Part shown: piece after piece, positions 42 through 50,181 of the stretch
How positions within the stretch are numbered: position 1 is the first letter of the stretch
Layout: the number at the start of each line of letters is the position of its first letter
Source of the DNA: a virus
Length of the DNA: 64,000 nucleotides
Strand: one strand, 5' to 3'
IMG/VR virus record: IMGVR_UViG_3300021364_000009
Coordinates: 1-64,000 of that record
Translations under genes and position numbers: made by a program
Notes under the pieces: generated by a model
The model's input: only the letters and a program-made list of their open reading frames with translations
What the model was told of the DNA's origin: nothing
Database searches by the model: none

Positions 42-392
42 ATGAGAAGAACAGCCACAGAGATACTAAGAGACTTAGAAATAAGAGTTGCTAGGCTTGA
101 AAAAGAGTCTTCACCGAAAGAGTATGTAGACCTTGATTATATAGAACAACTTGCTCGTCTGTTTGTACATCACAGCAGGGGAGTAAAGCTTGTTGAGAGG
201 AAAATGCAGAGAAATGGTCGTGAGGGGGTTTTCATACACCTTAAGAATGGTGGAGCAATCATTTATGAACTTCACATGGGTAATGGTCTTTTAGCGAAGA
301 CTCCAGATGGTCCGATTGGTTGGGGACGAGTTTCTTTTGATGGTATGAAAGAAGTACTGAAAAAAGATTTAGCTTTATATGCCAATAATTAA
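42..392 (+). CDS. Hypothetical protein with [12 protein letters not shown] leader
   Basis: A 116-residue protein I do not recognise. Residues 4-21 form a charged amphipathic helix ([18 protein letters not shown]) that recurs almost unchanged at the N-terminus of the membrane protein encoded at 49333. The rest is a small mixed alpha/beta domain (residues 30-116) without a known motif. GGGAG lies about 7 bases before the ATG. The gene converges with the GIY-YIG gene and overlaps it by 4 bases. One AGAAATA word (77-83) falls inside the shared leader. The leader may be a targeting segment, but that is inference. Confidence 0.75.
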
Positions 393-715
393 GTATTTCT
401 AAGAGTCTTACCTCTACACCACTTGGAGTCTTCAAGCGTCCAACATAACCTTTGACGACCCCTTTTGCGTTTAAGAGCTTTCTCAGCTTTCATAGCTTCA
501 GACCTGTTAGCGTATGTGCCGTAAGTACACATGAGCTTCCAAGGTCTATATTTAGAAGTATATTTGGCTCCGCCTCTTATTTCTCCGTTGTGTTGTCTCA
601 GTCTGCGATTAACGTCAGTAGTACAACCAACGTAGAAGAACCCTTCAGCAGGCTTCCCACTTGCAGTTTTTCGTGGTTGTTGGCTCTGAATTACATATAC
701 GACCCATTCGCTCAT
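389..715 (-). CDS. GIY-YIG endonuclease-like protein
   Basis: A 108-residue single-domain protein of the GIY-YIG superfamily. The paired motif appears in degenerate form as VYV (residues 6-8) and FYVG (27-30). These are followed by the conserved RRLRQH segment (about 37-42, with the catalytic arginine) and a glutamate in KAEKALK (Glu78). Length and layout match small SLX1/UPF0213-like domains. The start at 715 is chosen because TAAAGGAG sits 6 bases upstream; a GTG seven codons earlier has no such site. Members cut branched or specific DNA, and many in phages are homing enzymes. A lone domain next to unrelated genes fits a mobile or repair role, which cannot be decided here. Confidence 0.8.
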
Positions 716-769
716 TGATAGCTCCTTTATGCTCACTTATTATCAACCTTATCGTAAAGGAGTCCAAAG

Positions 770-5137: not shown

Positions 5138-5716
5138 ATGAAAATAAGCGTTGAAGGGTTGATAGGGGTGGGCAAGTCTACTTTTGTCCGTCATTTTTGT
5201 CAGCAGACCTCTTACACTCCGTTGTATGAGTCTGTTTCAGACAATCCTTTTCTGTCACGGTTCTATGAAGACCCTAAACGCTGGGCTTTTACCCTTCAAA
5301 TGTATTTCTTGTATGATCGGTGTAAGAACCATACTGAGCAAGGCGACATACTTCTTGACCGTTCGATCTATGGTGACATTTGTTTTGCAAACATCTTACA
5401 CGATCAAGGCACATTAGACTCCGAAGAATACCATTCTTATATGAGTCATTTTAATCTTGTAGAGTCCTTTATCCCCAATCTTGACCTTTGTATTCATCTT
5501 CATATTTCAGAAGAGAAGGCTATGGAGCGAATTGCAAAAAGGAACAGGAGCTTCGAGTCTGACCTTCCGTTAGATTACTTACAGAGGCTTCAATATCAGC
5601 TTTTCAAGCTACCTGATCTTCTTCCTAAAGAGACAAAATACATCCGAATTGATTGGGGTGATATGGATGAAGAAGAAATAAGAGAAAAAACTCAGAGTAT
5701 TATTTCTTCCCTTTAG
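5138..5716 (+). CDS. Deoxynucleoside kinase
   Basis: A 192-residue kinase that phosphorylates deoxynucleosides to monophosphates with ATP, feeding dNTP synthesis in the infected cell. The P-loop GLIGVGKST is at residues 7-15, the substrate-binding and catalytic DRS motif at 74-76 (DRSIYGD), and an arginine-rich lid at about 130-139 (ERIAKRNRS). The length fits the dNK/dGK family (Drosophila dNK-like fold). The substrate base cannot be read from the sequence. AGGAG precedes the ATG. The 3' end overlaps the convergent gene at 5700 by 17 bases. Confidence 0.85.
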   Translation: MKISVEGLIGVGKSTFVRHFCQQTSYTPLYESVSDNPFLSRFYEDPKRWAFTLQMYFLYDRCKNHTEQGDILLDRSIYGDICFANILHDQGTLDSEEYHSYMSHFNLVESFIPNLDLCIHLHISEEKAMERIAKRNRSFESDLPLDYLQRLQYQLFKLPDLLPKETKYIRIDWGDMDEEEIREKTQSIISSL

Positions 5717-6566
5717 TGTTAGCAGGTGTCTGCCACTTCTTTGGGTACGGCTTCATTTTCTTAGGGTCTTTTTGACCTTGGTTGATGAGGTAGTATCTCT
5801 TATTTCTTTCACAATGAGGGCTGTTTGGCTCTTTATACTTGCAATAGATACTCCAAGCTAAAGCCCATGCCTTTGAAGTCTCGTAGTCTTCTTCCTCTTC
5901 AAAGTAGTGTGCTTTCTCAGTGACGTACTTAGGTACGTCTCTTTCTTTCTTCTCTGCAACTATGGTTTGTTCTGCATTTCGAGTAGGTAGAGAGTGGGTG
6001 GAATAACCCCCCCAAGACTTCTCATAGGAATTGAAAGCGAGTCTCAGATTATCTATGTCTCCTGCAAGGATTGTATGGTTATTGCTTTTTACCCACTGCT
6101 CAATGGCTCTCAGATACTCCCTCTCTCTCTTTTCATCTCTCTCATTTTGAACCTTTTCTAGCCACCTGTGAAAAAGAACTGTAGCTTTGTTTATTTTTCT
6201 CTTTTGAGAGGCGTAAATAGACCCATAAGGCTCTACGAGAAACCCTGAGTCATTCAAATATGCTTTACTTCCAGGGATATAAATACGAGCTAAGAATCCT
6301 TGTCCTGTTTGTTTTGTCCATACATTATGGTTTTGACCGACTTGGGTTAGAAGATCGGAAAGTTTCTCTATGTTTTCGATAGCTTCTTCTTTATCCCACT
6401 CTTTATTTCTTTTGCTTTCGTTTCGTTTCCACTCTTTATACTCAAGAGATTTGCTAAACTTGAATTCTAAAAATTCTCTACTGTCTGAATCAGTTAGATC
6501 AAAGGAATGCCCTAGTCTCTTTAAGTAAGCAGTTCTGACTATCTTTTTTAACTGTATATCACTCAT
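5700..6566 (-). CDS. Hypothetical protein with YCKYKEPNSPHC motif
   Basis: A 288-residue, highly charged protein. The C-terminal region (about 218-262) reads as an acidic helix, then AWALAWSIYCKYKEP, then NSPHCERN, ending in a basic tail. From memory, similar segments (AWAxAWSxYCKYKxPxSPHC) occur in many uncharacterised phage proteins, often at the C-terminus. The paired Cys and His-Cys could bind metal. The rest is unfamiliar. AAAGGAAA precedes the ATG. It is transcribed away from the tube gene at 6647, and the 80 bases between them should hold divergent promoters. Confidence 0.65.
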   Translation of the reverse strand: MSDIQLKKIVRTAYLKRLGHSFDLTDSDSREFLEFKFSKSLEYKEWKRNESKRNKEWDKEEAIENIEKLSDLLTQVGQNHNVWTKQTGQGFLARIYIPGSKAYLNDSGFLVEPYGSIYASQKRKINKATVLFHRWLEKVQNERDEKREREYLRAIEQWVKSNNHTILAGDIDNLRLAFNSYEKSWGGYSTHSLPTRNAEQTIVAEKKERDVPKYVTEKAHYFEEEEDYETSKAWALAWSIYCKYKEPNSPHCERNKRYYLINQGQKDPKKMKPYPKKWQTPANTKGKK

Positions 6567-29831: not shown

Positions 29832-32573
29832 TCACAACAATGTATTGATATTTCGACCTTCAAAGAAGACTTCTGTCTTCTTGTTTTTATTTTCATTTAA
29901 CCACAAAGCAAGAGACTCTGCTTCTTTTTTTGTAAGCTCTTTTATCTCGTATCGCTCTGCTTTCGTTTCTTTTGTAGGAGCCACCTCAGTCGTCATATCT
30001 TCAGAGTGTGGTTCTTCCTTTTTGCTCTCTTTGAAAATAGAGTAAAGCTCATCTACTTCGTTTTGTGTGAGCAGTCTTTCTTCTGCGGAGTATTTATAGT
30101 CTATGTTTGAGCTTCCACATTCATGGCAGACTGTTTCAGAAATAGTGGTCTTGATCTTCCCTGTCTCTTTGCAATCAGAGCACTTGTATGTCTTTAATAT
30201 TTTCTCACCTGCGGTACGCTCTTTAATGTCCTTTACATCATAAGGTACATCCCAACGCTTACCAAGCTCAACATCTACAAGAAGAGGTACAGGCCAATTT
30301 TGGTTGGCAATCGCTTTATTTCTTGCCATGATTTTAGAAATAATCTCGATAGCTTCTTCAAGGATAGAGCCATGTATCTCGAAGACGATCTCATCGTGTA
30401 CCGTAAGAATCATGTGGAGCTTATCGAACCAATTTCTTTGCTGTACCGCTTTATATATGAGGCTCATGGCAAGTTTGGTGATGTCTGCTGACGTTCCTTG
30501 TATAGGGCCGTTTACTGCTTTTCTCTCATCTTTTGATTTCTTTCGGAAGTCCTCAGAGTTTATTTCTGGCAAAGGTTGGACTCTCCCAAAAGCAGTCTTC
30601 ACATACCCTTGCTTTCTTCCTACTTTGTGCTGGTGGCTCCACCAACCTGTCAGTGTCCTGTATGTCGTGGTGAATTTACGGAACTTCTCCTCTCCTTCTT
30701 CTGCCGTACACCCTTCAATTGATCGCTGAACTGCTTTACCTGTACCTCCGTAACTCAGTGCAAAGTTACAACGCTTCCCATGTCCACGGAGTGCTTTCCA
30801 ACGTGGGTCTTTCTTAGCGTTTTCACCATAGAAAGCAACAGCCGTGATTGTGTGCAAGTCTCCTATTTTGTCGGAGCCACACTTAGGGCAGAAAGGAGGA
30901 GTCTCAATCGGTAGGTTTTCTTCTGTTATCTGCTGTGGAAGCTCATGCTCACATTCAGAGCATTGATAGAACGCCTTGATCCATTTTGGCTCAGTAGAGA
31001 GGTTGGTTACGAGTCTTAACTCGACACCTGCATAGTCGATAGCTACTAACCAATTCTCTCTGTCTCGTACATCAATGCAACTACGCATTTGGTTTACAAT
31101 ACGAGGCTTACTTGAGTCATAGGAGGAAGGTATCCCTTGAAACGGCACACGACAGCCTCCGTCTTTTGTCTTTTGGGGGTCTTTGGTGGTTTTACAGCTA
31201 AACCTGCCTGTGTCGGCTGAAAACTGCTTAAAAGAAGGCTTAAGCGTACCATCTCTTCCGACATCCTCTAAGAATGGGATTAAGTATTGGTTTAAAGCCC
31301 GACTGATATTTCTCAGTCGTTTCATCTTTGCCATGAAAGGGAAGTCTTTGTACGACTTCTCGATCACTTCGTCTAAAACATCTGCACCTGTCTTAACTTG
31401 CCCTGACTTCTCAGATATTTGGAGGTTTGGAATGTTTAGCTCTCGAAATAACAGACCCAACTGTTGTGGCGACATAATGTCGTAAACAAGAGGGAACTCG
31501 ATTTTCTCTGTGCCTTCCTTGCCTACAATATTGACGTTCTTTTCAAGAGTTTGATTGGGGTCTGGATATAATCTCCTCGCCTCTTTTCGTGCTTCGTCTA
31601 AGATTGTCTTATAAAAAACACCTTCTTTGATCTTGTCTGTCTTAAAGTGGTTCTCACCCTTTAACTCTCCTTTCATGAGCTTGAGGAAAGACGGAGAAAT
31701 ATCTCTCCCAAGAATGTCTTTCGCTCCACTATACACTTCAAGTAGAGAGTCCCACCACTCTTGGTGTCCTTCTAACACAAACTCTTTTGTTCTTACTGCG
31801 TCTACATGTACACGGCATCTGTGCATCCATCTGACAGAAACAGCACAAGATTTCTCTAAATTATACATAGAGTTGGTGTGTTCGGGAGCTTCTTGGTATT
31901 TCTTGTAGAGGATGTTAAACACTCTTAGAGTACAAAGAGGATCAGCAGCCGCATATAAGACGCTAGGAGGCCAAGAGGGGTCGAGTGTGCTGTAATCTTT
32001 GACTTTTGAATCGGGTATAAGTTCGTTTAGCTCTATCATCTCCATACCGCAGAGGTTTTTAGAGAGGGCTTTCAGACCTCTGCCCCCCTTTTCCCGAGGA
32101 TTTAGCAGATAAGTCAGAATAAGGGTGTCTTCCCACTTCTTCCCATCATTAAATCTTTTGCTTCCAATATCGAAGAAGCCGTTGTAGTCGAGAAATTCCA
32201 AGTCAAAGTTAGCGTTGTGAAATACGGGGTTTGCTTTCACTTCTGTAGAGAAGAGGCGTCCAAACTCTCGACCTAATACAGACCAAGGGATGTTGTTGCT
32301 GTCTCCCACTCTATGTCCGACAGGGAAATAGTAGGCTTTCTCTTCATTCGGAGCGATACCGATACCTACAATAGAGTCTACAGTCCTTCCCCCATAGACT
32401 CTGTTGTCTAGTCCCGTAGTCTCAATGTCACACCCATAATAATCTGAGGCAATACACTCATCTATCGCTTGAGAGATGTTCTCTGTAGTACCGAGAATAA
32501 GCTCGACATCCTTCATCCAATCTTTGGGCTTTATTTCGGGTCTTCTTATTTCTTCCAAGAAATCTGCGAACAT
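29832..32573 (-). CDS. Family A DNA polymerase with 3'-5' exonuclease and zinc-ribbon insertions
   Basis: A 913-residue replicative polymerase. The exonuclease carries DIETTGL (about 49-55), HNANFDLEFLD and YAAADPL. The polymerase has motif A as DYAGVELR (about 509), motif B as GKRCNFALSYGG (about 600-612) and motif C as VHDE (about 724). There is no 5'-3' exonuclease domain. Two zinc-ribbon-like Cys sets are inserted: C-x2-C and C-x2-C between motifs A and B (about 536-566), and another C-terminal to motif C (about 794-822). Such ribbons are not standard in family A enzymes. It heads a minus-strand operon and AAAGGAG precedes the ATG. It probably copies the phage genome with the helicase and primase domains encoded at 37.7-47.8 kb. 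Confidence 0.9.
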   Translation of the reverse strand: MFADFLEEIRRPEIKPKDWMKDVELILGTTENISQAIDECIASDYYGCDIETTGLDNRVYGGRTVDSIVGIGIAPNEEKAYYFPVGHRVGDSNNIPWSVLGREFGRLFSTEVKANPVFHNANFDLEFLDYNGFFDIGSKRFNDGKKWEDTLILTYLLNPREKGGRGLKALSKNLCGMEMIELNELIPDSKVKDYSTLDPSWPPSVLYAAADPLCTLRVFNILYKKYQEAPEHTNSMYNLEKSCAVSVRWMHRCRVHVDAVRTKEFVLEGHQEWWDSLLEVYSGAKDILGRDISPSFLKLMKGELKGENHFKTDKIKEGVFYKTILDEARKEARRLYPDPNQTLEKNVNIVGKEGTEKIEFPLVYDIMSPQQLGLLFRELNIPNLQISEKSGQVKTGADVLDEVIEKSYKDFPFMAKMKRLRNISRALNQYLIPFLEDVGRDGTLKPSFKQFSADTGRFSCKTTKDPQKTKDGGCRVPFQGIPSSYDSSKPRIVNQMRSCIDVRDRENWLVAIDYAGVELRLVTNLSTEPKWIKAFYQCSECEHELPQQITEENLPIETPPFCPKCGSDKIGDLHTITAVAFYGENAKKDPRWKALRGHGKRCNFALSYGGTGKAVQRSIEGCTAEEGEEKFRKFTTTYRTLTGWWSHQHKVGRKQGYVKTAFGRVQPLPEINSEDFRKKSKDERKAVNGPIQGTSADITKLAMSLIYKAVQQRNWFDKLHMILTVHDEIVFEIHGSILEEAIEIISKIMARNKAIANQNWPVPLLVDVELGKRWDVPYDVKDIKERTAGEKILKTYKCSDCKETGKIKTTISETVCHECGSSNIDYKYSAEERLLTQNEVDELYSIFKESKKEEPHSEDMTTEVAPTKETKAERYEIKELTKKEAESLALWLNENKNKKTEVFFEGRNINTLL

Positions 32574-38325: not shown

Positions 38326-38880
38326 ATGAGAAAGAAAATTGCGAACGATCTGCTTAAGCCCTTAGAGACATATGGCAAGTATGAAGGTGTTTTAGAGTAT
38401 GACACATACACTCTTGGCGATGACTTGGGTGTCACCTTCTATGGTAATGGAGAACAGATCGGATATATTCGAGGACAGAAGCTTGACTATAAGAACTTCC
38501 AATCTTTGCAGAAAGTTAGAGATTGTTATCCCGATGTTGTGAACTTAGCAGAGATGGGTGGTAGTGATGTGTGTGACAGGAAAAAAGGAGTCTCCTGTCT
38601 TTTACCTAGAGTTTTCATGATTACAGACTCAGATTTAGATACGAACGACAATCAAGGAACCTCGCTAAGAGGCACAGGCATTGGTCGGATGATGTATGAA
38701 GCTATCTTCACAGAGTTTTATGAAGACCAAAAAAATAAGGATTTCATAGCTGTACCTATGAAATGTATTTTTGGTCGAAGCAGTACTTCTTCAGATGCTC
38801 AGAGAGTGTGGAACTCTCTTGCTAGGACATTAGAGTCTTCTAATGATCTTGTTCTTGTAGACAGACCTTTGATCTTTTAG
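38326..38880 (+). CDS. GNAT-like acetyltransferase, copy B, with N-terminal tag
   Basis: A 184-residue paralogue of the protein at 33401. The putative acetyl-CoA loop is RGTGIGRMMYEA (about 123-134); the shared motif TSSDAQRVWNSLAR follows. The start KKIANDLLKPL is a copy of the helix tag. Between tag and core it has its own insert (about 75-120) containing several cysteines. The ATG at 38326 has AAAGGAG 5-6 bases upstream. The gene stands alone on the plus strand between two minus-strand blocks and overlaps the GIY-YIG-type gene by 4 bases. Confidence 0.6.
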   Translation: MRKKIANDLLKPLETYGKYEGVLEYDTYTLGDDLGVTFYGNGEQIGYIRGQKLDYKNFQSLQKVRDCYPDVVNLAEMGGSDVCDRKKGVSCLLPRVFMITDSDLDTNDNQGTSLRGTGIGRMMYEAIFTEFYEDQKNKDFIAVPMKCIFGRSSTSSDAQRVWNSLARTLESSNDLVLVDRPLIF

Positions 38881-39221
38881 TTTTTTTCCCACCAATCGTC
38901 AAAACCCCCAAATGGGATGAGGTCATATATTTCTACAGGAATACTACCCACACAGTCATAACTGAACCATTCTCCTGAACCTCTCCACTCTTTGAGTTCT
39001 TCGTGGAGTTCTTTCTCTCTCCACCCCAAACCCTCTAAAGATGCAACTATTCTCAGAGTATTGGGGTTTCCTGTCTGTAAGTTTTTGAGTCTTCTTTCAG
39101 GATGTTTAGACCTCCCTATCTTTATTTCTCCCGTGTTAGAAGATTGGATGAAATAAAGATAGTCGCCTTTCCTTTCGAGCTTCCTTGCTCTGTAGTTTTT
39201 CACTAGCTCTTCATATTTCAT
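38877..39221 (-). CDS. T5orf172/GIY-YIG-superfamily protein
   Basis: A 114-residue protein with the T5orf172 pattern: YLYFIQS (21-27), IKIGRS (33-38), RRLKNLQTGNP (43-53), LGWREKELHEELKEWRGSGEWF (65-86). These correspond to the two short strands, the arginine helix and the C-terminal glutamate of GIY-YIG nucleases. T5orf172-type domains occur in phage and restriction proteins and are often predicted nucleases. Its ATG lies 2 bases after the stop of the last methyltransferase, whose final codons provide its ribosome site (GGAGTCTAAGAATG). It may act with that gene set. Confidence 0.75.
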   Translation of the reverse strand: MKYEELVKNYRARKLERKGDYLYFIQSSNTGEIKIGRSKHPERRLKNLQTGNPNTLRIVASLEGLGWREKELHEELKEWRGSGEWFSYDCVGSIPVEIYDLIPFGGFDDWWEKN

Positions 39222-39223
39222 TC

Positions 39224-40453
39224 TTAGACTCCAAAGAAATTCTCTTTAGCCCATTTAGGTTCAGGAGCTTCTCCTTTGCTCCAAACCCAAATAGGCTCAC
39301 CATAAACAGAACCACCTACTTCTCCCATCCTATCGCCAGGTCTTTTGTTCATCCTATACCCGATAACACCTTCATACGTTGCTCCTATTGACTCCATATA
39401 ACTCAACATAGGTTCACAGATAGAAGCATTTACATCGGTTCTTGAGTGTCCCTTATCTGCGATGTTGATTGCAATTCTCCCCCCTTGGACTAAGCTCTCC
39501 CAAGCTAGTTTTAAACTAGGTAGAAAAAACAGATCGAGCCATTCTTGGTTGGTTTTATATCGTTTCCAACTTTGTGTCTCTTCTTCAGAGTATTTCTCAA
39601 TGTTGAAATAAGGGGGAGAGGTAAATACAAAGTCGAACTTACGATCTCCAAGATCAGCATCTTCAGCGGGAGAGCAAATAAACTCTGTTTTCTTTCCTGT
39701 GTTGCAGAATTCAGAAATAGAGTTGTAGTGTGGGTGGAGCTTTGAGTTAGGGTCAATACCTACATAGCTCTCTGCGTTGGAAGCGTGGAACCCAACGAGT
39801 CTGTCACCCCAACCTGCGGAGAAGTCGATCACATTTTTAGCGTCAAAGAAATCGTAAAGTGTTTTTGCACATGAAGGTTTGAACTGAGACGCCATGTAGT
39901 TTCCTAATCTCAGACAATCTCTAAGTTGCTTATTTCCGACACCATTTTTCAAAGCGTCTTTCTCGGAAAGCGTCCAAAGAACTCTTAATACATATCGAGT
40001 CTTTGATTTGCATCCGTCTCTAGTCCATTCTCTCATCGGGCTTTTGTGCTCAAAATGAGCACACTTCATTCTTTCAATGTGTGTGTGCTGATCTGACACT
40101 TTTAAACCATGAGATGAAGATTGGAAGTAACACGGCTTATCTAAATATGTAGTGGGCACATCAGGGATGGTTCTTAGACAAACCCAATCTCCAATCTCTA
40201 TTTCTTTGCTCTCTTGTTTCAGACTATTAAAGTCTTTGTTTAGCTTATTGTGTGTGTATTTTCTTTCGGGGAAAGGTAGGTTATTTTCTTCTATCAGACT
40301 AGAAAGATGTTCGATTATTTCCTTCTTCTCGAAGTTATGTTTTATTTCACTCCAAATATGAGGGGGGATTGAAATCTCGTCTTTTTCTATAAGACTGTAG
40401 TCTGAGAGCTTTTTTGTTGTTTCTTTTTCTGCACTTAAATCAAATAATTCCAT
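39224..40453 (-). CDS. DNA methyltransferase-like protein, paralogue 1 of 4
   Basis: A 409-residue SAM-dependent methyltransferase: SAM motif DFSAGWGDR (210-218), acidic GIDPNS following, catalytic SPPYF (279-283), as in N4-cytosine or N6-adenine DNA methyltransferases of the TSPPY type. An N-terminal module with PFPxRxY (about 60-66) and a variable part (about 80-170) precede the core; a conserved QHTxIxRMxCxHxxxKSPxxEW block lies at 122-143. The end EPIWVWSKGEAPEPKW...FFGV is nearly identical in all four copies. The variable parts may hold target specificity. Copy 1 is the last in the chain. Confidence 0.75.
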   Translation of the reverse strand: MELFDLSAEKETTKKLSDYSLIEKDEISIPPHIWSEIKHNFEKKEIIEHLSSLIEENNLPFPERKYTHNKLNKDFNSLKQESKEIEIGDWVCLRTIPDVPTTYLDKPCYFQSSSHGLKVSDQHTHIERMKCAHFEHKSPMREWTRDGCKSKTRYVLRVLWTLSEKDALKNGVGNKQLRDCLRLGNYMASQFKPSCAKTLYDFFDAKNVIDFSAGWGDRLVGFHASNAESYVGIDPNSKLHPHYNSISEFCNTGKKTEFICSPAEDADLGDRKFDFVFTSPPYFNIEKYSEEETQSWKRYKTNQEWLDLFFLPSLKLAWESLVQGGRIAINIADKGHSRTDVNASICEPMLSYMESIGATYEGVIGYRMNKRPGDRMGEVGGSVYGEPIWVWSKGEAPEPKWAKENFFGV

Positions 40454-40455
40454 TT

Positions 40456-41634
40456 TTAAACTCCGAAGAAATTATCTTGTGACCATTTAGGTTCGGGGGC
40501 TTCTCCCTTACTCCATATCCAAATAGGTTCAGCAAAAGGCTTTTCTGTTTTCTGGCCGCCTCGTTGATAAAGTTCATATCCAATCGCACCTTCGTAGTGG
40601 GCGTTCAGTTTTTCCATGTGTTTGAGCATAGGCTCACATAAGTTTATGTTCTTTTTGTCATTGATATTAACACATACTCTCCCACCCTCAGATAAATGAT
40701 TCCAACATTTCGTTAGAGTTGGAAGCAAGAACCCCTCTAACCATTTTTCAGGTGTTGCGTATCGCTTCCAACTCTGTGTTTCTTCTTCAGAGTATTTCTC
40801 AATGTTGAAATAAGGTGGAGAGGTGAACACAAAGTCGAATACTCTATCTTCAAGATCAGCATCTTCAGCAGGAGAGCAGATAAACTCTGTTTTCTTTCCT
40901 GTGTTGCAGAATTCAGAAATAGCGTTGTAGTGTGGGTGGAGTTTAGTGTTTGGGTCTACTCCCACATAAGAAATAGCATTTGAGGCGTGGAAGCCAACGA
41001 GTCGATCTCCCCAACCTGCTGAGAAATCGAGTACATTTTTAGCGTCAAAGAAATCGTATAGCCATTTTGCAACCACAGGTCTAAACTGTTGAGCCATATA
41101 AGAGTGGCTCATGATTGCTCTCCTTAAAGTTTGACTATTGATGCCACCTCTAGTGTAAGGTTCATCGCTCCTAAAACCAAAGAAGCCTCTGAGGAAGTTA
41201 TTCTTTTTATCTGGATTTTGCCATTCATAGATAGGGGACTTACTCGAATGATACCCACAGTTCATTCTTACTATTTGAGTGTATTGGTCTGAGATAGTTT
41301 TTCCCCTATTATTTCCTGAAAATAATAGGTGTTGGTCTAAGTATTTATTCTCTAAGCCTCTTACTTGTCTTGGATTTTCCCACTCTATTTCTTTCAGCTC
41401 TATTTCTGACTGTTTTAGTTTCAACCAGTCTTTTTTAACTTCGCTTAGTTCATACTCTCGTAGAGGAAAAGGTAGCTTCTTTATTTCTTCTGATAGGTGT
41501 GCTTTTATTTCTTCTTCAGAGAAATAATGGAGCAAGTTATCCCATTCTTTTGTAGAGATATAAAGACGGTTCTCTATTACGGTAGAGTACTCTTCTATCG
41601 GTTTTTTGGGTTCTCGTTCTAAATCAAACAGCAT
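40456..41634 (-). CDS. DNA methyltransferase-like protein, paralogue 2 of 4
   Basis: A 392-residue copy with the same layout (DFSAGWGDR, GVDPNT, SPPYF, final EPIWIWSKGEAPEPKW and FFGV). At the DNA level its catalytic segment is about 88% identical to copy 1 over some 250 bases, while the N-terminal 100 residues and the section around 100-175 diverge strongly. This suggests recombination or strong selection on specificity segments. Its start lies 4 bases from the end of copy 3 with ribosome site GGAGTCTAAATG, taken from the FFGV codons of copy 3. Confidence 0.75.
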   Translation of the reverse strand: MLFDLEREPKKPIEEYSTVIENRLYISTKEWDNLLHYFSEEEIKAHLSEEIKKLPFPLREYELSEVKKDWLKLKQSEIELKEIEWENPRQVRGLENKYLDQHLLFSGNNRGKTISDQYTQIVRMNCGYHSSKSPIYEWQNPDKKNNFLRGFFGFRSDEPYTRGGINSQTLRRAIMSHSYMAQQFRPVVAKWLYDFFDAKNVLDFSAGWGDRLVGFHASNAISYVGVDPNTKLHPHYNAISEFCNTGKKTEFICSPAEDADLEDRVFDFVFTSPPYFNIEKYSEEETQSWKRYATPEKWLEGFLLPTLTKCWNHLSEGGRVCVNINDKKNINLCEPMLKHMEKLNAHYEGAIGYELYQRGGQKTEKPFAEPIWIWSKGEAPEPKWSQDNFFGV

Positions 41635-42807
41635 TTAGACTCCAAAAAAGTTTTCTAATTTAAACTTAGGTTCGGGGGCTTCACCTTTACTCCATATCCA
41701 AATAGGTTCACAGAAAGTTCCGATTAAACCAATACCATTCCTCTTGTTGAGCTTGTAGCCAACTACACCCTCATAAGTAGCTCCCAACGACTCCATATGT
41801 TTCAACATAGGAGTACATATATCTTCACCTTTTTTATCTGCTATATTGATCGCTATTCGACCCCCTTCAACGAGACAACCCCAAGACTTACTAAGCATGG
41901 GAAATAGAAAGCCCTCTAACCATTTATCTGTAGTAGGATAACGCTTCCAACTCTGAGTGTCTTCTTCACTATATCTCTCTATGTCAAAGTAAGGTGGGGA
42001 AGTGAATACAAAGTCCACTTCAACCCCTGTAAGATCAGCATCTTCAGCGGGAGAGCAGATAAACTTAGTCTCTTTACCTGTATTACAGAAATTGCTGATC
42101 TCTTCGTAGGGTTGGTGTAGCTCAGAGTTAGGGTCTATCCCTATGTAGCTGATCGCATTAGAAGCGTGGAAGCCTACAAGTCGATCTCCCCAACCTGCTG
42201 AAGTATCTAACACTCTTTTCGCACCAAAGAAATCGTAGATAGTCTTAGCACATGAGGGCTTGAACTGACTCGCCATGTAGGTGTGCATTTTTAATGCTCG
42301 ATAAAGAGTGCTTTGGTCTATGCCTTTAGAGGCTAACTCGCTCTTGAGTATGCCGAACAAACACCTTAGAAATGAATTTTTTTTGTCGCAGTTCTCCCAT
42401 TCAAATACAGGAGCTTTCCCTGAGTGGTAGCCACATTTCATACGCATAATCTGAGAGTGTTGGTTAGACACTTTCAGACCATAATTACCACAGGTGAACA
42501 CTACAGGCTCACCTCTATAGAGTAAGGGTGTTTCTTTACTTTGTCGGGGGGCTAACCATGACTCTTTTGCGTAGCTTATTTCTTCTGCCTTTAGTTTTGC
42601 CCAGTCAGACTTAACCTCTTGTTCTGTGTATTCTCTAACAGGGAAAGGCAAGCCTTTGATTGCTTCGGCTAGTTGAGGCTTTATTTCTTGTTTCGAGTAA
42701 TGGTCTAGCATAGCCAACCATTGGCTAGGGGGGATTACTAGCTTGTCTCCTATTATTTTTATGTACTCTTGGAGAGGTTTCTTTTCAGTGGTGTAATCAA
42801 ATAACAT
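41635..42807 (-). CDS. DNA methyltransferase-like protein, paralogue 3 of 4
   Basis: A 390-residue copy. SAM motif appears as DTSAGWGDR (Thr replaces Phe), the acidic site GIDPNS and the catalytic SPPYF are intact. Its last 68 coding bases (41639-41706) are identical to those of copy 4, the longest exact match among the four genes, indicating gene conversion or very recent duplication between neighbours. The N-terminus MLFDYTTEKKPLQEY and PFPVREY fit the family. Site GGAGTTTAAGAG before the ATG comes from copy 4. Confidence 0.75.
   Translation of the reverse strand: MLFDYTTEKKPLQEYIKIIGDKLVIPPSQWLAMLDHYSKQEIKPQLAEAIKGLPFPVREYTEQEVKSDWAKLKAEEISYAKESWLAPRQSKETPLLYRGEPVVFTCGNYGLKVSNQHSQIMRMKCGYHSGKAPVFEWENCDKKNSFLRCLFGILKSELASKGIDQSTLYRALKMHTYMASQFKPSCAKTIYDFFGAKRVLDTSAGWGDRLVGFHASNAISYIGIDPNSELHQPYEEISNFCNTGKETKFICSPAEDADLTGVEVDFVFTSPPYFDIERYSEEDTQSWKRYPTTDKWLEGFLFPMLSKSWGCLVEGGRIAINIADKKGEDICTPMLKHMESLGATYEGVVGYKLNKRNGIGLIGTFCEPIWIWSKGEAPEPKFKLENFFGV
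41639..41706 (-). repeat. 68-base exact repeat at a methyltransferase 3' end
   Basis: Identical to 42815-42882. It encodes the common C-terminus (SKGEAPEPKFKLENFFGV) of methyltransferase paralogues 3 and 4 and includes the ribosome site used by the following gene. Confidence 0.9.
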
Positions 42808-42810
42808 CTC

Positions 42811-44007
42811 TTAAACTCCAAAAAAGTTTTCTAATTTAAACTTAGGTTCGGGGGCTTCACCTTTACTCCATATCCAAATAGGCTCACAAAACATAAGACT
42901 TGTGTCTCCCATGTTTTTTCCTGGTCTCGCACCCATCTCATATCCGATAACACCTTCATATGTAGCCCCTAGTGTTTCCATGTGTTTTAACATAGGCTCA
43001 CATATTTCTTCTCTCTGACCCTGTGTATATGCGTCTGCAATGTTGACACAAATACGCCCACCTTCAGATAAATGATTCCAACATTTCGTTAGAGTTGGAA
43101 ATAAGAAACCCTCTAACCATTTTTCCATTTTGGGGTATCGCTTCCAACTTTGTGTCTCTTCTTTAGAATATCTCTCCAAAGTGAAATAAGGTGGAGAGGT
43201 AAATACAAAGTCGAATACTCTATCTTCTAAATCAACGTCTTCTGCGGGAGAACAGATAAACTCTGTTTTCTTTCCTGTGTCACAGAATTCAGAAATAGCT
43301 TCATATTTTGGATGGAGTTTTGAGTTAGGATCAACACCCACATAGCTCTCTGCATTTGAGGCGTGGAAACCAACAAGGCGATCACCCCAACCTGCTGAGA
43401 AATCGAGCACATTTTTAGCGTCAAAGAAATCGTAGATTACTTTTGCAGACTGAGGTTTGAACTGAGAAGCGATGTAGCTTCTCATAGCTAAAGCACTCTT
43501 CAATGCTTTTGGTGTGACATCCTTATTGAACATCACAGGATTAAGTAAGAATTTGAGGAAAGACTTCTTTTCACTTGTCCATGCAGACCACGGTGAGCGA
43601 AACCTCTCATGCCCTACTTCCATTCTCTCTTCTTGTGTGAAAAAATCAGAAACAGAAGCCCCTATTCTCAGAGCTTGTGGCACATATAAAGATAGCTCTT
43701 TATACTGAGTAGGTATTTCTTCAGAGATACGCTTGCACGACCAACTTCCTTCTTGGACAGAGGCGTCTTTGCTTTGAAGTAAACTAAACTCGTTTCTTAT
43801 TTCTTCAAGGTTATATTCTCGGTATGGGAATTTGATTTTCCCTTCATCAATTAAAACGATCATTCTTTTCATTATTTCTTCGTTGCTGTACGAAGAAATA
43901 ATGTTTTGCCACAGACCTCTAGGTATGAATATTTTTTGGTCTATGCCAAATATTTCATTTTCATCTAAGAGGTTTGGTTTTTTTATTTCTAAGTCTTCAA
44001 ATAGCAT
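42811..44007 (-). CDS. DNA methyltransferase-like protein, paralogue 4 of 4
   Basis: A 398-residue copy, first in transcription order of the array and directly joined to the DnaB-like gene (stop TAA and start ATG are adjacent). DFSAGWGDR, GVDPNS and SPPYF are present; the N-terminus MLFEDLEIKKPNLLDENEI is the most divergent. The segment near 90-170 lacks the KSPxxEW block of the others but has FRSPWSAW. Its first codons are preceded by GGACGGA, not by the GGAGTYTAA junction that copies 3, 2 and 1 use, which fits it being the founder copy or the edge of the array. Confidence 0.75.
   Translation of the reverse strand: MLFEDLEIKKPNLLDENEIFGIDQKIFIPRGLWQNIISSYSNEEIMKRMIVLIDEGKIKFPYREYNLEEIRNEFSLLQSKDASVQEGSWSCKRISEEIPTQYKELSLYVPQALRIGASVSDFFTQEERMEVGHERFRSPWSAWTSEKKSFLKFLLNPVMFNKDVTPKALKSALAMRSYIASQFKPQSAKVIYDFFDAKNVLDFSAGWGDRLVGFHASNAESYVGVDPNSKLHPKYEAISEFCDTGKKTEFICSPAEDVDLEDRVFDFVFTSPPYFTLERYSKEETQSWKRYPKMEKWLEGFLFPTLTKCWNHLSEGGRICVNIADAYTQGQREEICEPMLKHMETLGATYEGVIGYEMGARPGKNMGDTSLMFCEPIWIWSKGEAPEPKFKLENFFGV
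42815..42882 (-). repeat. 68-base exact repeat at a methyltransferase 3' end
   Basis: Identical to 41639-41706; see that entry. Outside this block the two genes differ at many positions, so the identity is local. Confidence 0.9.
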
Positions 44008-45522
44008 TTATCCGTCCAAAACATCAGCTAATGGGTCTTTTTTCTGCTCTCCCTTTTTCCCTTGATATGTGGGGATAGAGTGCATGGGGATATTGAGGAT
44101 TCTACCAGAAGGCCAAGCAGGTTTAGCTTCAAAAGGCTCAAACCCTCCACCCTGTCTGACTTTCAGACATTGATATTTGATCGCTCCTTTTTCTCTCATG
44201 TCATCTCCGTACCAACAGGAAATAACAACGTCAGAAGAACGCTCTGCTTCGTTAGCATAAGAGAGGTGTGTAAGATTGTAAGAGCCTCCATTTTTCTCAG
44301 CGGCTCTAAATCCTTCACGGGAAATCTGAAATAAACAGAGAAGAGGGATGCCTTCACCTCTGTTAAAGGAGAGAGCTAGTTTCTTTAAGTCTCGTATGAC
44401 CTCATTTAGTCTCTCTGTAGTACTAGCCACCCATCTTCTTGATGAAACTAAGAGAGCGTGATCTACAACCAAGACTTTTGCAGGTCTTCTTTGATGTAAC
44501 ACTTCAGCCTTAGTCTTAATATCTTCGACTGTAATGTCCATCGCATCGGGGTCTGCTATTTCAAATTGAATAGACCCATACTCTCCACTCTCTACACCTT
44601 CTCTTAAGTCCTTAACGACATCCTTCAGCAAGTCGATTTCGTCTTCTGTGAGTGTGCCATTCTTAATAGAGTCAGGGTCAATCCCCACGTCAGGTGTTTG
44701 TTGTTTTTGGATACCTAACGCTATTCTCTTATCTCTAAACTTCTTGTGCATAGAGTGGAAAGCATAAATAGTCTCTCTGCACTGCTCATAGTGCATTTCT
44801 AGCTGAAAATAAATGCTGTTTAGACCTTGATAGACAGCTTGGTTGTATATCCAATTCATCGTAGTCTTGGATTTCATGTGTGCGGTAAACCCTGCCACCA
44901 TATAAAGCTCTTTTTTACGGAACCCTCCGATAGCATCGTCTATGCACTTCAGACCTGTCTTAGGGAGTACGCCAACATCTGTATCTACAGTTTTCTGATA
45001 ATGCTCCCAAAAAGCGTCTTCGTCGTTGAGTACATCCCCACCTAACTTCGCCCCAAAGGTTGGGGTGAGTAGATCAGAAAGCTCTTTAGAGAGGAACTTT
45101 GTAGCATCTCTGACTCCTTTCAGAGTAAAAGTGTTCCGCCCTTCTTTTATTTCTAGTCCTTGTCTTGCAATCGTTTTAGCAGAAGATATTGCCTCTGCTA
45201 ATGCCATGTGTCGTGCGTCCTCTACACTCTTTTCAATCTCAAGAATAAAGTCGCCACGATATATGACAGGAGTGCTAGAAATCTGTCGGATGCGATCTGC
45301 TTCATCAAAGTCATTGTTAGAGTCAAAATATTGTATGACAACATCTTGCTCAGGCAGATGTCCGTGAGTAGACGCAAAAGTCTTAATAAAGTCATAGATT
45401 TTTACGTCAGTGGGTTGGTCGAATTGAAAAATACTCTCTCGAAGAGAAATATAATTCTGAAACATCAAGTCGTCTTTGTCGCCAACTCTAGTGTCGGGGA
45501 GTATTGCTCTTAATATCTTCAT
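44008..45522 (-). CDS. DnaB-like replicative helicase with altered Walker A
   Basis: A 504-residue protein. The N-terminal helical part (about 1-160) resembles DnaB's. A RecA-like core follows: the P-loop region GFTAHMKSKT (211-220) keeps the Lys-Ser pair, but Met replaces the glycine before Lys. A Walker B appears as KVLVVDH (349-355), and an arginine-glycine-rich end as KVRQGGG. It unwinds DNA ahead of the polymerase. The ATG overlaps the stop of the loader-like gene (ATGA), so the two are translated together. The Walker A change is unusual; it may reflect a lineage variant rather than loss of activity. Confidence 0.75.
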   Translation of the reverse strand: MKILRAILPDTRVGDKDDLMFQNYISLRESIFQFDQPTDVKIYDFIKTFASTHGHLPEQDVVIQYFDSNNDFDEADRIRQISSTPVIYRGDFILEIEKSVEDARHMALAEAISSAKTIARQGLEIKEGRNTFTLKGVRDATKFLSKELSDLLTPTFGAKLGGDVLNDEDAFWEHYQKTVDTDVGVLPKTGLKCIDDAIGGFRKKELYMVAGFTAHMKSKTTMNWIYNQAVYQGLNSIYFQLEMHYEQCRETIYAFHSMHKKFRDKRIALGIQKQQTPDVGIDPDSIKNGTLTEDEIDLLKDVVKDLREGVESGEYGSIQFEIADPDAMDITVEDIKTKAEVLHQRRPAKVLVVDHALLVSSRRWVASTTERLNEVIRDLKKLALSFNRGEGIPLLCLFQISREGFRAAEKNGGSYNLTHLSYANEAERSSDVVISCWYGDDMREKGAIKYQCLKVRQGGGFEPFEAKPAWPSGRILNIPMHSIPTYQGKKGEQKKDPLADVLDG

Positions 45523-46190
45523 AGCTTCATACTCCTACGTTTTGGTTGTGTGCTAGTTTCAGTCTTTCTTCCCATGAGATTTATTCTTTCCCAACCTTCA
45601 ATAGACTCGTCTACTGCTCTCGACCAAGAAATATGTCCTTCTTGTAAAGGGCGGTTTGGCTCTTCTACAATCCATGTAGGTTTAGAGAGATGCTCTCTAA
45701 GTTCTATTGTCTCTACGAGTACTTCAGGCATGGCACTATTTCTTGCCATTTTGACTCCAAGTCTCACGATTAAGAGTGAGGGAGACTCTGCTAAGTCTTC
45801 AAGAGATTGGACACGAATGTTTCTTTGGAAATCGGGGTCTATTATTTCTGACTGAGCTAGTTGAAGATTACTGAGCCAAGCACTCATGAGCGTTGCATCT
45901 GAAACTACTTTAACAAACTCTTCGGGCTTTTTTCGGTGTGCAAGAGCACTCCTCAGATTGAGCATCAATGAGCTTTTGTCACCAACAATGACAACATTGT
46001 CCTCCATCTTTCCTTTTAAAGAAGATGCTTTTGTTAGCCTAGTATCCGTTAAGCCTTTCCAAGCTCTCTCCGCTTGGATATTTAAGGCTTTTTTTACAGC
46101 ACAACTACAGGGTATTGCGTATGGCATACCCATGTAGCCATCGTCTTTTTGGAGATACCCTGCACCTCCACATTTTTTACACATAGACAT
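45519..46190 (-). CDS. Helicase-loader-like protein with N-terminal zinc motif
   Basis: A 223-residue protein. The N-terminus has C-K-K-C (4-7) and CSC (about 30-32), like the zinc motif of DnaC- and IstB-type loaders. The remaining alpha/beta region is similar in layout to an AAA+ domain, with NVVIVGDKSS where a P-loop would be (no clear GxxxxGKT), SLLIVRLGV and an arginine-rich C-terminus. It is placed between the SNF2 helicase and the DnaB-like gene and translationally coupled to both. A helicase-loading role is inferred from position and motif order. The ATG at 46190 has GGAGG upstream. Confidence 0.5.
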   Translation of the reverse strand: MSMCKKCGGAGYLQKDDGYMGMPYAIPCSCAVKKALNIQAERAWKGLTDTRLTKASSLKGKMEDNVVIVGDKSSLMLNLRSALAHRKKPEEFVKVVSDATLMSAWLSNLQLAQSEIIDPDFQRNIRVQSLEDLAESPSLLIVRLGVKMARNSAMPEVLVETIELREHLSKPTWIVEEPNRPLQEGHISWSRAVDESIEGWERINLMGRKTETSTQPKRRSMKL

Positions 46191-47772
46191 TACGAGCGTC
46201 CTCCAATAGTCCGTCAAATAGTTCAGCAACTTCGCTTGTACCGACTTCTACTATATCGGAATCTTCGTCGTTTTTGAGTCTCTTGCCTAAAACACTCTCA
46301 ATTAAGTTCATCTTATTTCTCAGAGTTTTCATTACTCTATCGTCAATCGTTTTAGGGGCTACCATATGGTAGGCAAACACCTTGTCGTGAATACTACCGA
46401 TGCGGATCATCCTACCTACAATTTGAAGATAATCTCCCGCTGACCAAGGCGTGTCATAGAAGATAACCGCTTTAGCTAGTTGAAGATTGACGCCTTCAGC
46501 CGCCGCCATTGTAATAAGACAGACTTTAACTTCAGACTTTTCGTCTTGGAAAGATTTCTGAGAGGCAAGTCTTTCTTCACCGCTCTCGGCTCCTGTGATA
46601 CGGCAAGTCTTGATCCCCTTGCCTTCTATTTCTGCTTCTAAAATATCGACCATCGCTCTAAAGCGAGAGAAAATAATTACTTTCTCACCCTCCAAGTCTG
46701 TAGAAATAGTCTCAATCAGAGCTTCGAGTTTCCCACTGTCTCCATCAAAGTCGAGTAAAGCAGGGTGATTTACGATTTGTTGGCAGATCGTCACCGCTGT
46801 CAGCTTTGTCACTTCACGCTCAACTAACTCGCCAGTTTCGGGGTCTATACACTCTAAGAATCCTTCCAAGGCTTCTTTGTATTTAGTCTTTTGAGGCTTG
46901 GTTAAGTCACACTTGATTACTTTGGTGGTCAAAGGGGGTAGTTCTTTCGCTACTTCATGTTTAGGTCGCCCTAAGAAATAGGGGTCTATTATCTTTCTAA
47001 ACTCCTCTATGTCTGATTTCCTATGTCCCACCACTACGGGGATTCTACGCCTACCTCCCGGAAGGATTTGATCTCTTGTAATACAGAAATGTCGCATAAA
47101 TGCGTTCTTTGTAGTGAACAGGCCGGGGACTGTGACTTTATATATTGCCCACGCTTCCATGAGCCTGTTCTTAATGATCGTGGCGGAAAGACTCCAAACT
47201 CGCTCTGCTGAACCTGCGAGATGCTTACAGACCTGATGGACTTGAGACTTATCATTCTTAAAGGCAGTAGCCTCGTCAAAGACCATTACATGACCTGTAA
47301 TATTTCTGAGGGTATCAAAGTCCATACACGCAGTCCTGTACCCCATGACAATCGCTTTAGGTCCTGCGTTGTAACTTTGAAATTCTGCGTGTATTTTTTC
47401 TCTCTTCTTTTTTGTCCCTAAACACTTGAATATCTTCACTCCATTAGTGAAGCGATCAAACTCTGCTTCCCACTGACCTACCGCAGACTTAGTAGTAAGA
47501 ATGATCGCAGGAACATCGGGACGCTTATCCCAAAGATAAGAGAGAGTTGCTATTACTTGGAGCGTTTTTCCAAGTCCCGTGTCGTCACCTAGAACAAAAC
47601 GAGGCATCGCTAATAAATGGAGAACCCCCTGAACTTGATATTGTCTCAGAGTTAGCGGAACACCTTGTTTTATTTCTGACTTGAGTATCTTACTTGGAGG
47701 AGCTTTAAGGTCGCTTTTAGTCCTTACTTTCCTCAGTTTTTCAATCGTTTTGATCAGTTTTTCTTCATTCAT
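46177..47772 (-). CDS. SNF2-family DNA helicase/translocase
   Basis: A 531-residue SF2 protein. Q-motif-like RQYQVQG (43-49), Walker A GDDTGLGKT (62-70), DEAT box (166-169) in place of DEAH, motif III SAT (about 196-198), and in the second lobe GVNLQLAKAVIFYDTPW, then QIVGRMIRIG as motif VI. The motif set and spacing are those of SNF2/RapA-type double-strand translocases, which move along DNA and displace proteins; strand separation is not a given. Its 3' end overlaps the loader-like gene by 14 bases. GGAGG precedes the ATG. Confidence 0.85.
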   Translation of the reverse strand: MNEEKLIKTIEKLRKVRTKSDLKAPPSKILKSEIKQGVPLTLRQYQVQGVLHLLAMPRFVLGDDTGLGKTLQVIATLSYLWDKRPDVPAIILTTKSAVGQWEAEFDRFTNGVKIFKCLGTKKKREKIHAEFQSYNAGPKAIVMGYRTACMDFDTLRNITGHVMVFDEATAFKNDKSQVHQVCKHLAGSAERVWSLSATIIKNRLMEAWAIYKVTVPGLFTTKNAFMRHFCITRDQILPGGRRRIPVVVGHRKSDIEEFRKIIDPYFLGRPKHEVAKELPPLTTKVIKCDLTKPQKTKYKEALEGFLECIDPETGELVEREVTKLTAVTICQQIVNHPALLDFDGDSGKLEALIETISTDLEGEKVIIFSRFRAMVDILEAEIEGKGIKTCRITGAESGEERLASQKSFQDEKSEVKVCLITMAAAEGVNLQLAKAVIFYDTPWSAGDYLQIVGRMIRIGSIHDKVFAYHMVAPKTIDDRVMKTLRNKMNLIESVLGKRLKNDEDSDIVEVGTSEVAELFDGLLEDARNVYV

Positions 47773-49231: not shown

Positions 49232-49332
49232 CTTATACTCCTTTTATAGTTTATTGGGATAGAAACCCACACAGATCAAAGGCATAAAAAATGTACGACA
49301 AAAAAGCAGATAACTTTTCGGGGAGAAATAAA

Positions 49333-50181
49333 ATGTTAGAGAATACATCTACTGAACTACTTAGAGATTTAGAAATAAGGGTCGCATCTTTAGAGAGAGA
49401 AGCCTTGTTTGGGTTCAACCTTAAAGATATGGGAGTTGGTATTGTCAAAGAAAAAATTACTGAGTTCCTAAGTAAGATTCCTTACTTCAGAGAAATCGAG
49501 AGATTCTTTAAGCAGATTTTCAAAGGCATCCGTGATTTTGGAGACGCTAAGAAGAGAGCTAAAGAGGTTTTAGATTTTGGCAAAAGAAATAAAGAAGCTA
49601 AGAAATATCTCGACTTGGTATATAAAGAAGAGTCTTCTCTAAAAGGTCGGCTAAAACTTATTCTTTCTCATATAAAAGACTCGGAAGCACGTTCTAGTTT
49701 TATGCGTTCTGCAGCAGATACACTAGGACAAATGTTTGGCTATATGCTCTTAGCTTGGGCAATCCTAGAGATTCTTAGCAGTATTTGCGTCAAGTTGGGG
49801 ATTGTGAATTATGTTCTAGGTTTCTTAGGTGCAGGTGCGATTATTTTTGTAGTCGCATTTATACTTCTTTTCATGGTCGATTGGAGAGGGGCTGAAAAAG
49901 AGATTTCAGAAATTGACGCTGAAAGAAAAAAGAGAGAAATCCCAGAGGGCTATGAAGACCTTTTTGATGAATACGGTGATCTACTCCCCGGAATGACCTC
50001 CGAACTCCACAGAAGACAAGACGAAGATAGAATCAAAAGAGAGAGAAATAACCCTTTCTTTAGATCGGCAACGAGTCAAACAGCTAATCTTAAAAAGAGG
50101 GCTAGTTTTATACTCGATTATTGTCTTTCCGAGGAGCAAAAGAGAGCGAACCGTGTAGCCTCAAGATACCTTCTATCTTAA
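49333..50181 (+). CDS. Membrane protein with leader helix and C-terminal RVASRYL tag
   Basis: A 282-residue protein. It begins [20 protein letters not shown], almost the same as residues 3-22 of the first gene of the window. The centre has two predicted membrane helices (about 136-200) preceded by a long charged helical region. The C-terminus ends in KRANRVASRYLLS, the helix tag. It thus carries both recurrent modules. GGGGAG lies 7 bases before the ATG at 49333; the frame extends 14 codons upstream without support. A TAGTTTATT element lies about 78 bases upstream. Possible membrane-associated virion protein; unproven. Confidence 0.65.
   Translation: MLENTSTELLRDLEIRVASLEREALFGFNLKDMGVGIVKEKITEFLSKIPYFREIERFFKQIFKGIRDFGDAKKRAKEVLDFGKRNKEAKKYLDLVYKEESSLKGRLKLILSHIKDSEARSSFMRSAADTLGQMFGYMLLAWAILEILSSICVKLGIVNYVLGFLGAGAIIFVVAFILLFMVDWRGAEKEISEIDAERKKREIPEGYEDLFDEYGDLLPGMTSELHRRQDEDRIKRERNNPFFRSATSQTANLKKRASFILDYCLSEEQKRANRVASRYLLS

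Follow-up and report, generated by a model that had tools for sequence, protein, structure and literature searches.

The window analysed here, the first 64,000 bases of a virus record 96,571 bases in length, contains four consecutive minus-strand open reading frames (ORFs), 0-3 bp apart, within a tight operon behind a DnaB-type helicase gene, and the first of them begins directly where the helicase gene ends. Four tandem paralogues beside a replicative helicase had been proposed in an earlier note on this DNA, with which both the ORFs and the DnaB_C match agree; the array starts at 39224, the position given there, 39221, belonging to the following gene as its first base. The following features are referred to below.

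46177-47772, minus strand: SNF2-family helicase, operon neighbour (profile match).
45519-46229, minus strand: Cys-rich protein, 236 aa, a conserved gene flanked by those of the SNF2-type and DnaB-type helicases.
44008-45522, minus strand: DnaB-like replicative helicase, upstream neighbour (DnaB_C, E=7e-17).
42811-44007, minus strand: putative methyltransferase copy 1 (P0004, 398 aa), the transcript's first copy (PF01555 8e-7, above the cut-off; model pLDDT 89).
43438-44007, minus strand: residues 1-190 of copy 1, its variable N-terminal domain and a putative target-recognition domain, confidently modelled and unmatched by any PDB fold.
42811-42867, minus strand: C-terminus of copy 1, a conserved tail (SKGEAPEPKFKLENFFGV plus stop) with its final residues disordered in the model.
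41635-42807, minus strand: putative methyltransferase copy 2 (P0003, 390 aa), from the ORF list.
40456-41634, minus strand: putative methyltransferase copy 3 (P0002, 392 aa), with the strict clamp-like tail SQDNFFGV.
40456-40512, minus strand: C-terminal tail of copy 3, beta-clamp-like QDNFF.
39224-40453, minus strand: putative methyltransferase copy 4 (P0001, 409 aa), from the ORF list.
38877-39221, minus strand: T5orf172/MUG113 (GIY-YIG-like) small nuclease-like gene, 114 aa, at the array's end (MUG113 8e-10, T5orf172 4.5e-9).

A second GIY-YIG endonuclease-like gene is located at window 389-736 on the minus strand (E 4.8e-14).

The four copies are true paralogues, since their similarity is far above chance (tblastn between copies, E about 1e-127 to 1e-158). 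All of them carry motif I as D[FT]SAGWGDR, motif IV as TSPPYF and NFFGV as the C-terminus, so that the common SAM motif, SPPYF site and ending described previously are present in each. A catalytic identity of up to about 88% at the DNA level had also been reported, and a 300-nt catalytic segment (39558-39857) was found to be 86, 73 and 84% identical to the other copies; the 68 identical 3' bases noted in two copies are the longest exact match between P0003 and P0004. The divergence claimed for the N-terminal segments is equally evident in the protein identities of the window paralogues, which amount to 25-46% in the N-domain vs 75-89% at residues 181-290, 47-67% at residues 291-380 and 78-100% in the tail formed by the last 18 residues.

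The best reading of the family is that of SAM-dependent DNA amino-methyltransferases. The G-W-G-D-R and TSPPYF motifs are invariant in all 23 collected members, every one of which is matched by the PF01555 DNA methylase profile at E<=0.01, weakly and with scores near the cut-off; among the window four, the curated PF01555 cut-off is passed by P0004 only. A beta-class DNA methyltransferase could be aligned to the catalytic half (hhalign probability 93.9), and a comparison of the family profile with PDB sequences gave a modification methylase as the best, though weak, match (E 0.009). A weak JBP1-like Pfam hint (E 0.077) was recorded, and P0002 resembles, over part of its length, MADS mad2 (PADLOC 2.6e-9). 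The N-domain of copy 1, modelled in isolation (pLDDT 88), found no match among the PDB folds (best E 5), and its assignment to a known DNA-binding fold was rejected on this search.

Despite their divergence within the window, the N-domains have recognisable counterparts elsewhere. Orthologues were found of copy 1 in G010 and G003 (83 and 80%), of copy 2 in G001/G002 (89%), of copy 3 in G010 (87%) and of copy 4 in G004 and G011 (71%), and the N-domains of close cross-phage orthologues share 55-87% identity vs the 25-46% among window paralogues. In the N-domain trees, alleles group across phages. The dN/dS along the alignment, a check proposed in the earlier note, was 0.06-0.26 for orthologue N-domains where synonymous change was unsaturated, which is purifying. 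Low dN/dS together with cross-phage orthology thus argues that the N-domains are old, distinct alleles under purifying selection, and the four copies look like maintained, separate specificities. To this extent, N-domain orthology and selection support the proposal of different targets set by the variable segments, but they do not reach to the target sequences themselves.

The core and the tail behave differently from the N-domain. At residues 181-290, the pS is 0.38-0.45 for several same-phage paralogue pairs (window, G010, G001) and 0.33-0.77 for orthologue pairs across phages, the same-phage pairs being as low as or lower than most; copies 1 and 2 differ by a pS of 0.10 in the tail vs 0.81 immediately upstream, and copy 3 groups with copy 1 in the tree of catalytic halves (98/91) but not in that of N halves. 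The simplest reading is gene conversion of core and tail. Concerted evolution of whole genes was rejected, as the trees lack clustering of copies by phage, and the conversion looks confined to the core and the 3' tail.

About ten phage lineages carry arrays or sets of the family, with 2-7 members each. In the sister phage G010, whose SNF2-type helicase, DnaB and T5orf172 proteins are 90, 92 and 82% identical to those of the window, the interval holds in order a copy 1 counterpart (83%), a D12-class methyltransferase, a beta-class methyltransferase, a copy 3 counterpart (87%), a GNAT-ATPase and T5orf172; two DNA methyltransferases of other classes and the GNAT-ATPase thus stand in place of two copies. 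TS-like, Asn-synthetase-like and PLP-type genes are interspersed in the arrays of G004, G009, G011 and G014, and LPG-synthase-like genes with a PP-loop/Asp-Arg-hydroxylase protein in that of G007. Short fragments of family members in G011, G012, G014 and G015 are likely gene remnants. Judged by gene content and order, the locus is a cassette island, with modification-like enzymes other than methyltransferases among the cassettes, a point absent from the earlier reading. A three-gene cassette of TS-like, Asn-synthetase-like PP-loop and PLP-enzyme-like genes lies between methyltransferase copies at L043:5060-7470, L045:10461-12883, L054:11380-13800 and L061:9210-11620 and possibly represents a pathway, so far undescribed, that modifies nucleotides or bases. 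At L122:580-8828, a Limnohabitans relative has as neighbours a T5orf172 gene and a further gene encoding an N6_N4 methyltransferase domain, and this locus is possibly a defence island.

The C-terminal tail, Q-D-N-F-F-G-V in many members, is conserved though disordered (pLDDT <50 at residues 393-398 in the model of copy 1); several distant homologues lack it and stop just after the last strand. Like endings occur on non-homologous array enzymes, namely QDNFFGV/QDNFFEV on the GNAT-ATPase, QVDLFGI/QLDLFGL on the D12 and QEYLF/QEYFF on the beta methyltransferase, and divergent family members end in QITLDL and QSLEL. The C-terminal consensus of bacterial beta-clamp clients is given as QL(S/D)LF in PMC9690074. 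When either a Qxx[L/F]F pentapeptide or a QxxLxL hexapeptide was required among the ten C-terminal residues, matches were found in 19 of 54 distinct family tails and in 8 of 680 other ORFs from the same viral loci (Fisher 1.5e-17, a value to be read with the pattern having been picked after the tails were seen and with family members not being independent). Shuffled family tails gave 0.7 matches on average and 4 at most, and six of the eight matching non-family ORFs are the array D12, beta and GNAT-ATPase genes themselves. In bacterial loci, 1 of 166 ORFs matched (QMSLF), by eye a radical-SAM DNA-repair-type protein.

Both array copies of the D12 enzyme carry the tail, whereas its non-array homologues, which have 57-64% identity and come from 15 contigs, some of them nearly the same, lack it; this comparison and that of the GNAT-ATPases were made after the clamp idea arose. 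For the array beta methyltransferase, the scan found too few relatives for comparing tails outside arrays. The precursor-type cassette genes (TS-like, PP-loop, PALP) lack the tail. Tandem GNAT-ATPase paralogues at L142:4001-5143 and 5152-6267 end in QESLF and QGSLF. Beyond serving as a family signature, the shared tails resemble beta-clamp-binding motifs and recur non-randomly on unrelated array enzymes, a resemblance absent from the earlier reading. A phage-encoded beta clamp was rejected after a search for DNA_pol3_beta_3 (PF02768, one family) gave no match in 11 phage records, possibly incomplete. The tails would accordingly dock on the clamp of the host, although the phages may have a clamp that escaped recognition, or the tails another partner.

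The explanation preferred here, with a probability of roughly 0.6, is that of paralogous DNA amino-methyltransferases with several targets, serving anti-restriction and docked by their tails on the host sliding clamp. Each copy would join its own N-terminal target-recognition domain to the common catalytic core and would methylate N6 of adenine or N4 of cytosine in phage DNA, with SAM as the donor. Four copies marking several different sequences would shield the phage DNA from several host restriction systems, the modification enzymes being gained, lost and homogenised by recombination at a cassette locus in the replication operon. The conserved tail would attach the enzymes to the sliding clamp of the host, so that nascent DNA could be modified when leaving the fork. 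The methyltransferase and anti-restriction part is based on homology, on the maintained alleles and on the exchange of cassettes with DNA methyltransferases. From these we infer the DNA substrate, the distinct targets and the anti-restriction role, and from the tails the clamp docking, which is their most likely function. The broader proposal, a plug-in, replication-coupled platform on the host clamp for which three methyltransferase classes and the GNAT-ATPases each gained a clamp-docking tail on joining the island, is put forward tentatively, at somewhat less than even odds.

The main rival, unlikely though deserving serious weight, keeps the same anti-restriction methyltransferase array and supposes that the tail binds a different component of the phage replisome, or that it is a remnant, either structural or left by recombination. 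The strict Q form is found in copy 3 only, copies 1, 2 and 4 ending in LENFFGV/KENFFGV, a weaker match, and the 68-bp converted 3' end is common to copies 1 and 2, two points that favour this rival. A different hub is also hinted at by a shared N-terminal motif, M-x-[LF]-F-[DE], seen on methyltransferases, GNAT-ATPase, PP-loop proteins and the phage DNA polymerase (window 29832-32573), and counted in 26 of 54 array vs 6 of 278 other ORFs. However, copying of one DNA end does not account for QLDLF, QESLF, QGSLF, QITLDL and QSLEL amid differing letters. Many unrelated proteins of these phages have, at or near the N-terminus, another common segment (20 protein letters), located at window 42-392 and 49291-50181, L044:18052-18468 and L047:6302-7096, among others, which possibly serves targeting.

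The other explanations are less likely than the non-clamp tail. A phage restriction-modification set, in which the methyltransferases protect phage DNA and the T5orf172 protein cleaves DNA of the host or of rivals, appears improbable: the T5orf172 gene does adjoin the window array and terminates the DnaB-locus arrays of G000, G007, G009, G010 and G014, but it is a single small nuclease-like gene against many enzymes, resembles homing-type endonuclease domains too, and is not adjacent to the arrays near the DNA polymerase gene in G001 and G011. The DnaB-locus array of G016 is also without it.

Methylation of RNA, protein or small molecules is more improbable still, although tRNA Trm11 and other non-DNA methyltransferases are the best PDB fold matches. 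The AF2 model of P0004 (pLDDT 89, pTM 0.88) was matched by Foldseek to PDB in its Rossmann part only, over about 205 columns, with Trm11 as the best match (E 1.8e-8, TM 0.35), and the matches to this domain, led by RNA methyltransferases and with low TM-scores, include small-molecule methyltransferases. A Trm11-type RNA methyltransferase was rejected, as the likeness does not extend over the full length with the RNA-binding part. Structure prediction had been named in the earlier note as a check that could place the enzymes in an RNA or small-molecule family; the Rossmann matches do include both, yet at TM about 0.35. Such substrates are disfavoured by the exocyclic-amine motif TSPPY, by the PF01555 match of every member and by the interchange of family copies with D12 and beta DNA methyltransferases. 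The claim of an expanded DNA amino-methyltransferase set is indirectly favoured by the profile, by the beta-methyltransferase alignment and by the D12 and beta enzymes at the sister locus, while the fold leaves the substrate unsettled.

Least probable is a carboxymethyl or other hypermodification via a SAM derivative, with CmoX/CmoY-like, Asn-synthetase-like ligases adding amines, which a weak CmoB resemblance and the Asn_synthase-like, TS-like and PLP-type genes within related arrays brought up, and the carboxy-SAM idea was rejected because CmoA exceeded the cut-off in none of 15 array phage records (two weak stop-interrupted scraps), the Asn_synthase family and the TS-like gene both being absent from the window's own phage.

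The docked DNA amino-methyltransferases proposed here may be compared with several known systems. The array family shares with PF01555 N6_N4_Mtase the TSPPY motif IV and the subsequent strand/helix region, but differs from the beta class in order: motif IV comes after motif I, and a putative recognition domain stands at the N-terminus. The catalytic half is homologous to PHROG phrog_12517 (function unknown) and to the 'N-4 cytosine-specific DNA methylase' of Vibrio phage 2.058.O, to which, however, the family is <35% identical; in 50,697 phage records no place covered 80% of the query, the homologues having <35% identity and at most 58% coverage. Giant-virus proteins (Pithovirus LCPAC102, annotated methyltransferases) match over the full length in predicted structures (about 400 columns, TM 0.74), but at about 26% identity. 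A literature search on GWGDR methyltransferases and on COG2401 found nothing. The multispecific phage C5-methyltransferases of the SPbeta/phi3T type hold several target-recognition segments in one enzyme; there, as proposed here, one phage protects several target sequences, whereas the array consists of separate paralogous amino-methyltransferase genes. The CmoA-CmoX-CmoY phage hypermodification system (PMC12783734) likewise has Asn-synthetase-like enzymes near phage modification genes, but no CmoA was found in the array phage records and their methyltransferase class is different. Eukaryotic DNMT1-PCNA coupling, in which a sliding clamp carries a methyltransferase, is described in PMC9690074; unlike it, the array enzymes are of phage, the clamp would be bacterial-type, and the coupling is suggested by the tails.

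Phage anti-restriction methyltransferases are already known; the apparently novel part is the family architecture, with a putative recognition domain without a solved structural relative, the swap-in cassettes and the convergent tails. A testable prediction is that the tail peptides bind DnaN. If true, the convergent clamp-like tails would explain how DNA is modified fast enough during replication, and such tails at array loci may provide a sequence handle for finding new phage DNA-modification enzymes.
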